DNA of 64,000 nucleotides from Neobacillus sp. PS3-40 (GTDB taxonomy: Bacteria > Bacillota > Bacilli > Bacillales > Cytobacillaceae). Below are positions 11,511-53,557 of this stretch, piece after piece. How positions within the stretch are numbered: position 1 is the stretch's first letter; each line of letters starts with the position of its first letter. Position numbers and translations under genes: made by a program. The DNA lies in the NCBI RefSeq assembly GCF_030915485.1, contig NZ_CP133266.1, positions 4,282,001 to 4,346,000 of the forward strand, in the 5' to 3' direction. Under the pieces are notes generated by a model. It saw only the letters and a list, made by a program, of their open reading frames with translations, had not been told where the DNA came from and did no database searches.

Positions 11511-11613
11511 AGTATATATATTCACAAATGTCAAAGCTGTTTTTGAAAAAGTGGACAATTAAATTTCCTTTTTCGAAAAGTTTAAGTATAATTATATTCA
11601 TATAGTTGAATAA

Positions 11614-11751
11614 TTCCTTCGGGGTTGGGTGAAATTCCCTACCGGCGGTGATGAAGCAATGGCTTCTAAGTCCGTGACCCGGTTAACATTGTTAAGCGGT
11701 GGATCTGGTGAAATTCCAGGGCCGACAGTTAAAGTCTGGATGAGAGAAGGA
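11614..11751 (+). ncRNA. FMN riboswitch (RFN element)
   Basis: The conserved RFN core is complete: CTTCGGGG, GGGTGAAATTCCC, ACCGGCGGTGATGAAG, AGTCCGTGACC, GGATCTGGTGAAATTCC, GGGCCGACAGT and AGTCTGGATGAGAGAAGGA at the 3' strand. It is followed by an intrinsic terminator at 11822-11855. It should repress the ribE-ribB-ribH transcript when FMN is plentiful. A TATAAT at about 11586-11591 is a possible promoter -10 element. Confidence 0.96.
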
Positions 11752-11821
11752 GAAAACTGGATCAGAAAAGGGAGACGCATGTCCTCATTTTTTAATCTTG
11801 CCTTTCTTATTGTCTTGTAAC

Positions 11822-13851: not shown

Positions 13852-14036
13852 GAAATAGAAATTCCAGTTGGGACTAACCTTCTTGTAGAATCATAACAAA
13901 TCAGAAATTCAGCAAAATTTTTCTGATTTGCGTGGTCTCTTTGTGGGGAGGTAGTCCTTTTCTTTTTCAATAAAACTATATACAAATCGATCTATTAACT
14001 TATATAATTATCATGACATAAAAAATCAAGCCAATA

Positions 14037-14262
14037 AAAACAGGTGCTAAAATCGTTTGGTTTTAGCTTAAAAGGGAAGTTTGGTTAAAAACCAACGCGG
14101 TCCCGCCACTGTAAATGGGAGCAACCTATAAGATGTCACTGTCTATAATAGATGGGAAGGCATAGGAAGCGATGACCATGAGCCAGGAAACCTGCCTGTT
14201 ATTTTGCACCAGTAACCTACGCGGATAGGAGGGTGTTGAGATCAATACGGGCAGTTTAACGT
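14037..14262 (+). ncRNA. Cobalamin (B12) riboswitch
   Basis: The conserved elements are in order: AAAGGGAAGTTTGG, CGGTCCCGCCACTGTAA, and the B12 box AGCCAGGAAACCTGCC, followed by CCTACGCGGATAGGAGGG. An intrinsic terminator follows at 14287-14311. The 3' AGGAGGGT (about 14227) is complementary to CTCCTCCT (14283-14290), so an antiterminator that competes with the terminator is visible. It controls the transcobalamin-like and ECF genes downstream. Confidence 0.95.
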
Positions 14263-16091: not shown

Positions 16092-16116
16092 GACTAATCG
16101 TCAGCATTTAGACTTT

Positions 16117-16292
16117 CGCTGATAAACAGTACATTATCGCCGATAAAATGAATTTTTCGCTGATATATTGTCATTATCGTCGATAAAATGAATCTTCCGC
16201 TGATATATTGTATTTTTTCGCTGATAAAATAAATTTTCTACTTATAAATTGAAATCTTACACAGATAAAATAGAATTTCTGATAATATATTG
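16117..16292 (+). repeat. Tandem 20-21 bp AT-rich repeats
   Basis: Eight to nine units of 20 or 21 bases, starting at about 16117, 16138, 16158, 16178, 16198, 16219, 16239, 16260 and 16280. The consensus begins CGCTGATAAAATGAAT, alternating with CGCTGATATATTGTAT. Units decay towards the 3' end. They fill the gap between the LPNTA protein and the DUF4430 lipoprotein. Confidence 0.75.
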
Positions 16293-23149: not shown

Positions 23150-23405
23150 GTCTATCTCCTTACTTTCAACAAATAATTGCAACATTATTCATTATAATTT
23201 TTTTTTGAAAAAAAAACCAACAAAGTGTAGTGGTACCGTTCAATCGGGCTCCGCAGAAAATATAGAAAATTTGCCGAGAATAAGGATAAAGAAGTTGTAG
23301 GTTATCATTTTTGCGGGCATTAATGTATGATGAACCTAATTAAGCTTTTTTCCTTTTACTTTACTAATTCATAACTAAGATATATTATTATTTTAATAAA
23401 ATAAA

Positions 23406-23502
23406 ACTACTAGGGGTGCCTGCTTGCTGGGCTGAGAGAAAAGTGAAACCGCTTTTTAACCCTCTGGACCTGATCTGGATGATACCAGCGTAGGAAAGTA
23501 GT
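23406..23502 (+). ncRNA. TPP riboswitch 1
   Basis: The THI element core is complete: AGGGGTGCC, GGGCTGAGAG, AACCCTCTGGACCTGATCTG, GATACCAGCGTAGG. The basal stem is AACTACT (23406) with AGTAGT (23497-23502). An identical ACTACT at 23521 could pair with the same AGTAGT, a visible switch. Terminator at 23532. Controls thiM-thiD-thiE. Confidence 0.96.
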
Positions 23503-23531
23503 GGGAAAAATATTTTTTCAACTACTCATGC

Positions 23532-28076: not shown

Positions 28077-28544
28077 ATGTTACAAACAATAATAAAAAAG
28101 AGTCAAGCTAAGAAGATTGAAAGCAGCTATACAAGCATCAATTTTGCTGATGCATTTACGAAAGTAAAAAATAAAAGTGTTGAACAATTTGCTCACTTTA
28201 AGGAAACATATAAAGAAACGATGGAACAAAAACTACATATTATGCAAAAAATTGACGGAATTTCAATATGGAAAATTAATAGCAAGTTAAATCGTCTTGC
28301 TGTAAGAGGAATTTCAAACGAAGTTTTAAAAAAAGGCATCATCACGATCCCATTGCCTGCGAAGCAATCAATTGAACCCATTTCATCATTGCAAAAGACA
28401 TTTATCGAAAAAACAATTGATGAATTAGAAGGCTTTGAAAACCTAAGATTAAGCCATTTCTACAACTACAAACCAACCTACATAGAAAAAAAGACATTAA
28501 CCGAAATAACTAGATGGATTGAGATTGAAATCTCGGATCTATAA
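28077..28544 (+). CDS. Hypothetical protein
   Basis: 155 residues, soluble, lysine-rich N-terminal part (KKSQAKKIESSYTSINFADAFTKVKNKSVEQF), a mid-section SIWKINSKLNRLAVRGISNEVL, and a C-terminal RLSHFYNYKPTYIEKKTLTEITRWIEIEI. I recognise no family. Good AGGGGAC site at 28063-28070 before ATG 28077. The gene is followed, 50 bases downstream, by the 52-bp tandem hairpin array. Confidence 0.6.
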   Translation: MLQTIIKKSQAKKIESSYTSINFADAFTKVKNKSVEQFAHFKETYKETMEQKLHIMQKIDGISIWKINSKLNRLAVRGISNEVLKKGIITIPLPAKQSIEPISSLQKTFIEKTIDELEGFENLRLSHFYNYKPTYIEKKTLTEITRWIEIEISDL

Positions 28545-28594
28545 GGCATCTTTAGCCGAATGAGTGGTTAATGAAGACTACTTTTGAATGTTTT

Positions 28595-29010
28595 TTAACG
28601 AGTTTGGTCCTTCATAGAGTTGATGAAGGACCTTTTGCCTGCTCTATTAACGAGTTTGGTCCTTCATAGGGTAGATGAAGGCCCATTTGCTTGTTTTATT
28701 AACGAGTTTGGTCCTTCATCGGGTAGATGAAGGCCCATTTGCTTGTTTTATTAACGAGTTTGGTCCTTCATCGGGTAGATGAAGGCCCATTTGCTTGTTT
28801 TATTAACGAGTTTGGTCCTTCATCGGGTAGATGAAGGCCCATTTGCTTGTTCTATTAACAAGTTTGGTCCTTCATAAGGTTGATGAAGGACCACTTGCTT
28901 GTTTTATTAACGAGTTTGGTCCTTCATAAGGTTGATGAAGGCCCATTTGCTTGTTTTATTAACGAGTTTGGTCCTTCATAGGATTGATGAAGGCTCATTT
29001 GCCTGTTTTT
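28595..29010 (+). repeat. Eight tandem 52-bp units, each with an inverted repeat
   Basis: Unit starts at 28595, 28647, 28699, 28751, 28803, 28855, 28907 and 28959; every interval is exactly 52. Each unit begins TTAACGAGTTTGG and contains the dyad GGTCCTTCAT ... ATGAAGG(A/C)CC around a seven-base loop, then TTTGCTTGTTTTA. Units 1 and 6 have the perfect stem (GGACC); units 2-5 and 7 have GGCCC, breaking one pair; unit 8 has GGCTC. Confidence 0.95.
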
Positions 29011-29062
29011 TAAGTTTTTCTTCACATTCTCAGAACTACTTACACGAAAGTATTTTTTATTT

Positions 29063-29091: not shown

Positions 29092-29152
29092 TACCCGCTA
29101 TTTCACTAACAAAGCAGGTTACTAAAAACAGTGCGTGAAAGGGATTGAGGGA

Positions 29153-30127
29153 ATGAAAGCAGTAATTGTAACGGAATTTGGTGGACCTGAATTTTTAAGA
29201 TACGAAGAAGTTAGCATTCCTACAATAGAAAAAAATGAAGTGTTAATAAGAGCTGTTAAGACAAGCGTTAATTTTGCAGATATTAAATCTAGGTACGGCA
29301 AAAAAGGTGTTAAACTGCCGTTTATTCCTGGTATTGATGTAGCGGGATATGTTGAAAAAATAGGTTCAGATGTAGCCCACCTAAGAGTAGGACAAAGGAT
29401 TATAGCATTTCCTAAAAATGGTTCATATGCAGAATACGTTGTGGCATCTGATCAATTAGTTTTTCCTATACCAGACGAATTGGATTTTAAAACAGCAGCA
29501 GCATGCCCCATTGTATCTTTTTTGTCGCATAGATTACTTTACAATATTGCTAGAATTCAAAAGGGCGAGTCGGTATTGGTTCATGCTGCCGCTGGAGGTG
29601 TCGGAACCACAGCAATGCAACTAGCAAAAATAATGGGAGCAGACAAAGTTATTGGTACCGTTGGGAGTAAAGACAAAATAAAAACTGCAGAAGAAAGTGG
29701 AGCTGATTATGTAATATGTTATGAGGAAGAAGATTTTGTAACAAAAGTTAATGAAATTACTAGTGGGAACGGCGCAGACATAATATTAGACTCACTCTCT
29801 GGTTCAGTCACAGAAAATAGTTTAAATTGCTTAGCTCCTTATGGGAGATTAATTCATTTTGGTAATTCAAGTGGCAAAGTAGGAAAAATTAAAACCGTTG
29901 ATTTGCATTCTAGTTGTAGAGCTGTTCTTGGTTTTAGTTTAGGCACAACAAGGAAGCTAAAACCGCATTTATTAAAAGAAACTGCTGAAGAGGTTATTCC
30001 TTACTTGGTTAATAAGCAATTAAAGATAAAAATAGGCCATGAATATCCACTTAGTGATGTAGCGAAAGCGCATAATCTAATAGAAAAAAGGGTAAACAAA
30101 GGCAAAATAATCTTGAACATTGAATAG
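29153..30127 (+). CDS. Zinc-independent quinone oxidoreductase / MDR-family dehydrogenase
   Basis: About 324 residues of the medium-chain reductase superfamily: N-terminal GroES-like domain (VLIRAVKTSVNFADIKSRYG, PFIPGIDVAGYVEKIG), then a Rossmann domain with the NADPH-binding AAAGGVGTTAMQLAKIMGA near residues 145-163. The zinc-ligand Cys/His set of true alcohol dehydrogenases is missing, so NADPH-dependent quinone or enone reduction is likely. I start at ATG 29153, eight bases after AAAGGGA; an in-frame GTG lies at 29135. Monocistronic, after the 52-bp repeat array. Confidence 0.85.
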   Translation: MKAVIVTEFGGPEFLRYEEVSIPTIEKNEVLIRAVKTSVNFADIKSRYGKKGVKLPFIPGIDVAGYVEKIGSDVAHLRVGQRIIAFPKNGSYAEYVVASDQLVFPIPDELDFKTAAACPIVSFLSHRLLYNIARIQKGESVLVHAAAGGVGTTAMQLAKIMGADKVIGTVGSKDKIKTAEESGADYVICYEEEDFVTKVNEITSGNGADIILDSLSGSVTENSLNCLAPYGRLIHFGNSSGKVGKIKTVDLHSSCRAVLGFSLGTTRKLKPHLLKETAEEVIPYLVNKQLKIKIGHEYPLSDVAKAHNLIEKRVNKGKIILNIE

Positions 30128-53408: not shown

Positions 53409-53433
53409 GGGGGAGGAAATAAGTTAAATACGA

Positions 53434-53529
53434 TAAATGTAGGGGGACCAGTTGTGCTGGTTGAGATTTCGTCCTTTTAGGCGATGACCCTTGGAACCTG
53501 ATCTGGTTGATACCGGCGGAGGGAACATA
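53434..53529 (+). ncRNA. TPP riboswitch 2
   Basis: THI element core: AGGGGGACC, GGTTGAGAT, GACCCTTGGAACCTGATCTGG, TTGATACCGGCGGAGGGAA. The basal stem is ATGT (53437) with ACAT (53525). One variation from consensus is GTTGAGA in place of GCTGAGA. A terminator follows at 53558. Controls the transporter operon starting at 53796. Confidence 0.95.
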
Positions 53530-53557
53530 TTCTTAAACAATTAATGTTTGCTAATAT

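Follow-up and report, generated by a model that had tools for sequence, protein, structure and literature searches.

What are the eight tandem 52-bp hairpin repeats that lie between two genes of Neobacillus sp. PS3-40, and are they a peculiarity of this one locus? The array is found in a stretch of 64,000 nucleotides of this genome (here called the window), where TRF delimits it at 28589-29013 with a period of 52, 8.2 copies, 92% matches, 0% indels and a score of 682. Each unit consists of a palindrome with 10-bp arms and a 7-bp centre, followed by a 25-bp linker, and the eight palindromes together span 28606-28996. The features of the locus are as follows.

28077..28544, + strand: upstream gene, 155 aa, 3' end about 45 bp before the array
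28589..29013, + strand (+ being the strand with the T-rich flanks): whole array, eight units of 52 bp by TRF
28606..28632, + strand: palindrome 1, GGTCCTTCAT-AGAGTTG-ATGAAGGACC, 10/10 pairs, terminator-like
28658..28684, + strand: palindrome 2, centre AGGGTAG, 9/10 pairs
28685..28709, + strand: example of a 25-bp linker, ATTTGCTTGTTTTATTAACGAGTTT, with three T-tracts
28710..28736, + strand: palindrome 3, centre CGGGTAG, 9/10 pairs
28762..28788, + strand: palindrome 4, centre CGGGTAG, 9/10 pairs
28814..28840, + strand: palindrome 5, centre CGGGTAG, 9/10 pairs
28866..28892, + strand: palindrome 6, centre AAGGTTG, 10/10 pairs, terminator-like
28918..28944, + strand: palindrome 7, centre AAGGTTG, 9/10 pairs
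28970..28996, + strand: palindrome 8, degenerate right arm ATGAAGGCTC, 8 Watson-Crick pairs and one G.T
29135..30127, + strand: downstream gene, quinone-reductase/zinc-dehydrogenase-like, start about 120 bp past the array

The initial annotation had seen an exact 52-base interval between unit starts and had placed the array between an unknown gene at 28077 and a quinone reductase. All seven start-to-start intervals are indeed exactly 52, and open reading frames and domain searches bear out both neighbours, the 155-aa upstream product having no Pfam or NCBIfam match. A palindrome is also present in each unit, as had been described, but its arms pair fully in only two of the eight, with a T.C mismatch at the third arm pair in the other six, and the (A/C)CC ending that had been given for the dyad fails in unit 8, which has the degenerate arm listed above. 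The description of alike middle units and diverged ends is broadly right, except that unit 7 is as close as unit 5; units 1-7 agree with their own majority at 45, 52, 51, 51, 49, 48 and 50 of 52 positions, respectively. Folded as RNA, two window units gave z = -6.99, a value that none of 200 shuffles equalled. In relatives, the quinone-reductase homologues are only 37-62% identical and no empty site is recognisable; no array was seen by eye in the DNA upstream of three such homologues (L144, L147 and L148).

The window array is no lone minisatellite but belongs to a class that extends across the order. In the 4.46-Mb genome (one contig), the core CCTTCAT-N7-ATGAAGG has 55 occurrences and its reversed control none. 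Counted by hand, the class has about 84 units in this genome, spread over 15 places (14 arrays and a unit standing alone), and neighbouring units are 50-53 bp apart; a further match of related sequence taken from the genome (L023) held no array. All 15 places are at most some 190 bp away from a gene's 3' end, as judged from longest-ORF calls.

At the level of the family, the same core is present in 92 of 193 genomes and 17 of 25 genera (the control in four of the 193, once each), with copies ranging from 0 to 193 within one genus and none in the other genome of PS3-40's own genus that was scanned. A pattern made of two successive outer clamps (TTGTCC...GGAC), which leaves the inner arms free and the period free within limits, matches 58 of 397 genomes of the order, in 27 of 136 genera, with no control match, and those among its matches that were listed measure 77-80 bp, which corresponds to periods of 50-53. 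The phylum sample gave matches to this pattern in two of 398 genomes, both inside the order, and in none of the 391 outside it, where two genomes each had a single occurrence of the reversed control. When GTDB contigs were scanned with periods of 37-67 allowed, at least 119 stretches were obtained; the genera among the matches listed are Neobacillus, Peribacillus, Metabacillus, Alkalihalobacillus, Heyndrickxia, Lysinibacillus, Ureibacillus, Anaerobacillus, Gracilibacillus, Aquibacillus and Salinibacillus, with others. The class is large and apparently undescribed, as no description of it was found in the literature searched, which included few subscription papers. The arrays are possible variable markers, and they call for caution in the use of terminator, small-RNA and CRISPR predictors.

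The usual definition of a bacterial repeat is by sequence. In these arrays it is spacing and self-complementarity that are conserved instead, across at least 27 genera. A logo of 87 arrays reads TTTTGTCCTTCAT-N7-ATGAAGGACATTTC, also written as TTTTGTCC..GGACATTT, and there is little information in the linker after it. The inner arms vary even within one genome (G077), where GTCAT/ATGAC, ATCAT/ATGAT, GATAG/CTATC, GTTAG/CTAAC and GAA../..TTC were found; the inner-arm survey covered six genomes including this one, and gave one control match. The arms are kept complementary while their sequence changes. In 35 representative cores, found without constraint on the inner arms and with the kinship among cores left in, 152 of the 175 inner pairs (five per core) are of Watson-Crick type, against a mean of 65 and a highest value of 92 in 2000 shuffles. 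Standard pairs make up 88.0% (45.4% shuffled) and the covariation score is 0.964 (0.225 shuffled), neither value being reached in any of 500 shuffles, and slid versions pair at 35-57%. Two of the five pair measures, i.e. pairs with double changes and the number of pair types, were not above shuffles.

The linkers show nothing comparable between genomes: their identity between genome labels is 0.340 against 0.318 when shuffled, which is near random, albeit with linker themes that by eye are common to the arrays of one genome. In unselected DNA, arm divergence among the units of one array is, for nine palindromic arrays, 0.051 and linker divergence 0.102, with the arms lower in eight of the nine; an earlier figure of 0.025 versus 0.153 was biased by a finder that demanded paired arms, and the former values are the better ones. 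The arms diverge less than the linkers in 15 of the 19 arrays of period 50-54 in such DNA, and only nine of these 19 have arms with at least 8/10 pairs.

Co-varying arms would also fit an explanation at the level of RNA, according to which hairpins in 3' untranslated RNA would act, in either orientation, as terminators or attenuators, or as blocks to 3' exonucleases. A further hint of action at the RNA level is the excess of G.T over A.C mismatches on the T-rich strand, seen in 17 versus 6 array consensuses (p=0.035). On the evidence assembled below, which includes the placement of the arrays beside genes, we nevertheless consider this explanation unlikely.

The period is the second conserved property, being held at about 52 bp while the linkers diverge to near-random identity. 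In the scan that allowed periods of 37-67, exact-core spacings below 200 bp could be collected from 80 of the at least 119 loci; they are 52 (261 cases), 51 (11) and 53 (7), with wider spacings of 104 (23), 156 (5), 155 (2) and 76, 96, 103 and 106 (one each). Modal periods of 52, 51 and 53 in 72, 12 and 2 of 86 genome labels come from a finder that accepts only 51-53 and are uninformative on other periods, and some genomes carry two labels. When 400 kb of G077 were taken at even steps, 14 of the 19 TRF arrays with periods of 30-300 had a period of 52 or 53. Six more genomes sampled at even steps gave period 52 in five of eight such arrays (G158, G181 and G006) and in none of three (G196, G201 and G198), a two-group split that is post hoc, with G077 and G158 picked as rich in arrays, G181 for an array seen, and G006 as nearly core-free.

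Fifty-two base pairs equal five helical turns at 10.4 bp. In 131 oriented arrays, T-tracts are centred at unit positions 28, 39 and 50, i.e. 11 bp apart, of which only the middle one (39) is independent, as those at 28 and 50 are partly set by the orientation rule. The arrays are predicted to be more curved than versions with rotated linkers in 123 of 175 cases (by genome label, in 57 of 76; p=1e-7), more than dinucleotide-shuffled versions in 117 of 175, and more than AT-matched 52-mers; the predictions rest on a set of wedge angles, and tandem units of whole turns always accumulate bend. A comparison of curvature by period was set aside, as its outcome is largely a property of any tandem unit. 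The five-turn period, the phased T-tracts and the predicted curvature fit the protein-binding array that had been suggested for the window locus, to which no protein could be assigned.

These observations lead us to favour, albeit tentatively and at somewhat less than even confidence, a BIME-like architectural DNA element between transcription units, in which selection acts mainly on geometry at the level of DNA. Units spaced by five helical turns would bring the palindromes onto one face of a curved segment, where they may be bound by a putative, widely conserved chromosome protein, or be extruded as cruciforms under supercoiling, or both. Placed between adjacent transcription units, such arrays could act as a boundary or a supercoiling buffer and might restrict how far supercoils or transcription extend; they may grow and shrink by recombination or replication slippage. 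E. coli REP/BIME elements bind gyrase or IHF, and enterobacterial BIMEs have been proposed to serve as boundaries or supercoiling buffers. Selection on the five-turn geometry, if it exists, would make the arrays a pointer to a putative architectural protein or topological device near the ends of genes in a major bacterial order. Against this background, the RNA-level explanation gives no reason for a period near 52 over divergent linkers, nor for the 11-bp phase of the T-tracts.

A bolder and quite unlikely proposal is that the intergenic tandem arrays of many Bacillales are created or maintained by a 'ruler' of about 52 bp, or five turns, which works independently of sequence. Candidates for it may be a protein filament or nucleoid structure with room for a single palindrome in every five turns, or an enzyme that expands arrays and gauges a length of 52 bp in doing so. 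If true, it would draw unrelated sequences, some without a clear palindrome, into one geometry, and would constitute a bacterial counterpart of phased satellite DNA.

Some further arrays were noted in the sampled genomes. In G181, a period of 156 (3 x 52) at L166 962-1449 and a period of 52 at L273 17560-18154 (11.5 copies, 93%) both occur in units without a clear 10-7-10 palindrome. The other TRF arrays of G077 have periods of 20-24 and 31, some of them near two and three helical turns.

The arrays are located at the 3' ends of genes, with no clear preference for the direction of the transcript. Among 161 arrays between two called genes, 53 lie in convergent, 93 in tandem and 15 in divergent gaps, compared with 44, 206 and 87 of the 337 background gaps at array loci (gene calls being longest-ORF calls, with several arrays in one gap counted separately); convergent gaps are enriched (p=5e-7) and divergent gaps depleted (p=1e-5). 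Within tandem gaps, 66 of the 93 arrays are closer to the 3' end of the upstream gene. In 64 clear tandem cases, the T-rich strand matches the direction of transcription in 27 and opposes it in 37. An earlier count of 66 arrays gave 19 convergent, 39 tandem and 8 divergent, with the T-rich strand in the same direction in 13 cases and opposite in 26. One 52-bp array (G077, L240 6579-7183) starts where an rRNA operon ends, about 90 bp past the 5S rRNA gene.

The bearing of this placement on the RNA-level explanation is mixed. Proximity to the upstream 3' end in tandem gaps and enrichment between convergent genes both speak for it, as do palindromes 1 and 6 of the window, which look like terminators over the full palindrome. 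So does the locus between sigF and spoVAA: the sigF terminator stands at the stop codon in all nine relatives examined, and in PS3-40 the second arm of this terminator is lost and a 7-unit array is present in its place. On the other hand, the strand bearing the T-run does not follow transcription, and for this reason an oriented intrinsic terminator is not supported for the class as a whole, nor is the multimeric terminator that had been listed among the possible roles of the window array. In addition, the only letters behind the stem in the logo of 87 arrays are ATTTC, and Rfam 15 at gathering scores, which also bears on the small RNA precursor listed among those roles, gave no match at the arrays of the window and seven other loci; permissive Rfam matches in the window were far below the cut-offs.

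The favoured reading as an architectural element has also to be weighed against one without host benefit. A lineage-specific selfish or neutral minisatellite, i.e. hairpin-prone DNA homogenised by recombination or slippage, could occupy the same places by default, insertions in promoters and genes being lost. The avoidance of divergent gaps agrees with this, and so do the linker themes within genomes and the wide range of core copies within a genus; the latter also argues against an essential shared role. Unit number, moreover, differs between species at one and the same locus: five genomes of one genus have 10, 2, 6, 10 (at a contig end) and 7 hairpins, with two in N. drentensis where Neobacillus sp. 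OS1-33 has six. Between species, this supports the strain-variable minisatellite that the initial annotation had considered. Yet divergence in the arms is about half that in the linkers, with arm changes that compensate one another; the period, too, persists despite linker divergence, and isolated units are rare, all of which is at odds with neutrality or selfishness. We judge such a minisatellite to be somewhat improbable.

Isolated arm-linker-arm copies number 0 and isolated hairpins 2, compared with 653 and 635 in arrays, at loci mostly chosen for arrays. A mobile element is made less likely by the lack of isolated arm-linker-arm copies at these loci and by the count of one single unit in the PS3-40 genome. 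In 49% of cases, against 25% expected, the end of an array is no more than 6 bp from the centre of a palindrome, many arrays both starting and finishing with half a palindrome, and no consistent target duplication was seen at the loci examined. With respect to a MITE, the outer 7 bp, read by eye, differ at most of the loci compared but resemble the inner centre at L113. No viral contig of IMG/VR has the paired TTCAT-type pattern, and blastn of the window array against plasmids and phages gave no match; these two results weaken a phage or plasmid origin and count against a selfish element as well.

The genome contains five copies of an insertion sequence with a Mutator/IS256-type transposase (PF00872; L011 2066-3705, L021 3054-4704; L301-L305). 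Two of them interrupt arrays (L011 and L021), at the same symmetric site inside the palindrome. Duplications of 8 bp flank all five copies, and are AT-rich at the three sites outside arrays. The arrays amount to only about 0.1% of the genome, so that two of five copies in arrays is unlikely by chance (p ~1e-5).

Among the known repeat systems close to the arrays are REP/BIME elements. According to the available text of PMC3733652 and PMC1525189, these are short palindromes that can form alternative complementary stems; most are situated downstream of genes, and they are very variable in copy number between genomes and serve as targets of insertion sequences. Like them, the arrays consist of short palindromes outside genes that recur many times (about 84 units at 15 places), but they differ in the period near 52 bp, the 7-nt centre and the lack of a firm tie to a RAYT (REP-associated tyrosine transposase). 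They also lack the unpaired GTAG or CGTC tag of REP/BIME; TGTC is paired with GACA here, whereas in the available text of PMC3733652 the REP tag CGTC is often changed to TGTC. Inverted dimers (head-head and tail-tail) prevail in REP/BIME, while the array units examined are all head-to-tail in one orientation. The phyla named for REPs in the same portion of PMC3733652 do not include that of the arrays, and the paper makes no use of the word Firmicutes.

Spread by a RAYT as a REP-type element is very improbable, although the RAYT model NF047646 (E <=1e-15) matches 43 of 58 array genomes and 167 of 339 others (odds ratio 3.0, p=5e-4, uncorrected for phylogeny). Fifteen of the 58 array genomes have no match at this threshold, including the array-rich G081, G085 and G213, and of the two matches in PS3-40 the one examined adjoins palindromes of other sequence. 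This RAYT-like gene (L300 2513-3304, - strand, 263 aa) lies near the palindromes AAGAAGCAAGGGAACCGTCCCCTTGCTTCTT, one of which may be its own REP.

Another comparison is with the STAR elements of Staphylococcus, described in the accessible part of PMC3532100 as direct repeats between genes whose core is conserved, whose spacers are particular to each locus and whose number grows and shrinks locus by locus, and which are of unknown function. The arrays resemble them, as far as this part goes, in being intergenic repeats with a conserved core that expand and contract by locus. Spacing is given there for STAR as at least 40 bp, against the fixed spacing of the arrays, and the same part describes no co-varying palindrome. 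The 14-bp STAR consensus core, with up to two mismatches, has five matches in the window against 3.5 expected, none of them in the array, and a STAR element was rejected, this core being absent from the array and not above chance in the window. Bhal-1, Bant-1 and bcr1, the stem-loop families of Bacillus halodurans and B. anthracis, measure 72-167 bp per species in the part of PMC2267715 available. They too are intergenic stem-loop repeats in Bacillales, and Bhal-1 of B. halodurans may overlap the class. With CRISPR the arrays share palindromic repeats of constant period; that assignment was rejected, as linkers are alike within an array and are not unique spacers.

The window also has other repeated or structured elements. 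A second tandem family with a period of 20/40-41 (TTTCGCTGATATATTG) was recognised by eye at 16114-16278 and again at L019 2578-2672. The riboswitches of the window are ordinary, and lie at 11611-11755, 14025-14213, 23402-23513 and 53431-53541 (FMN, cobalamin and two TPP).
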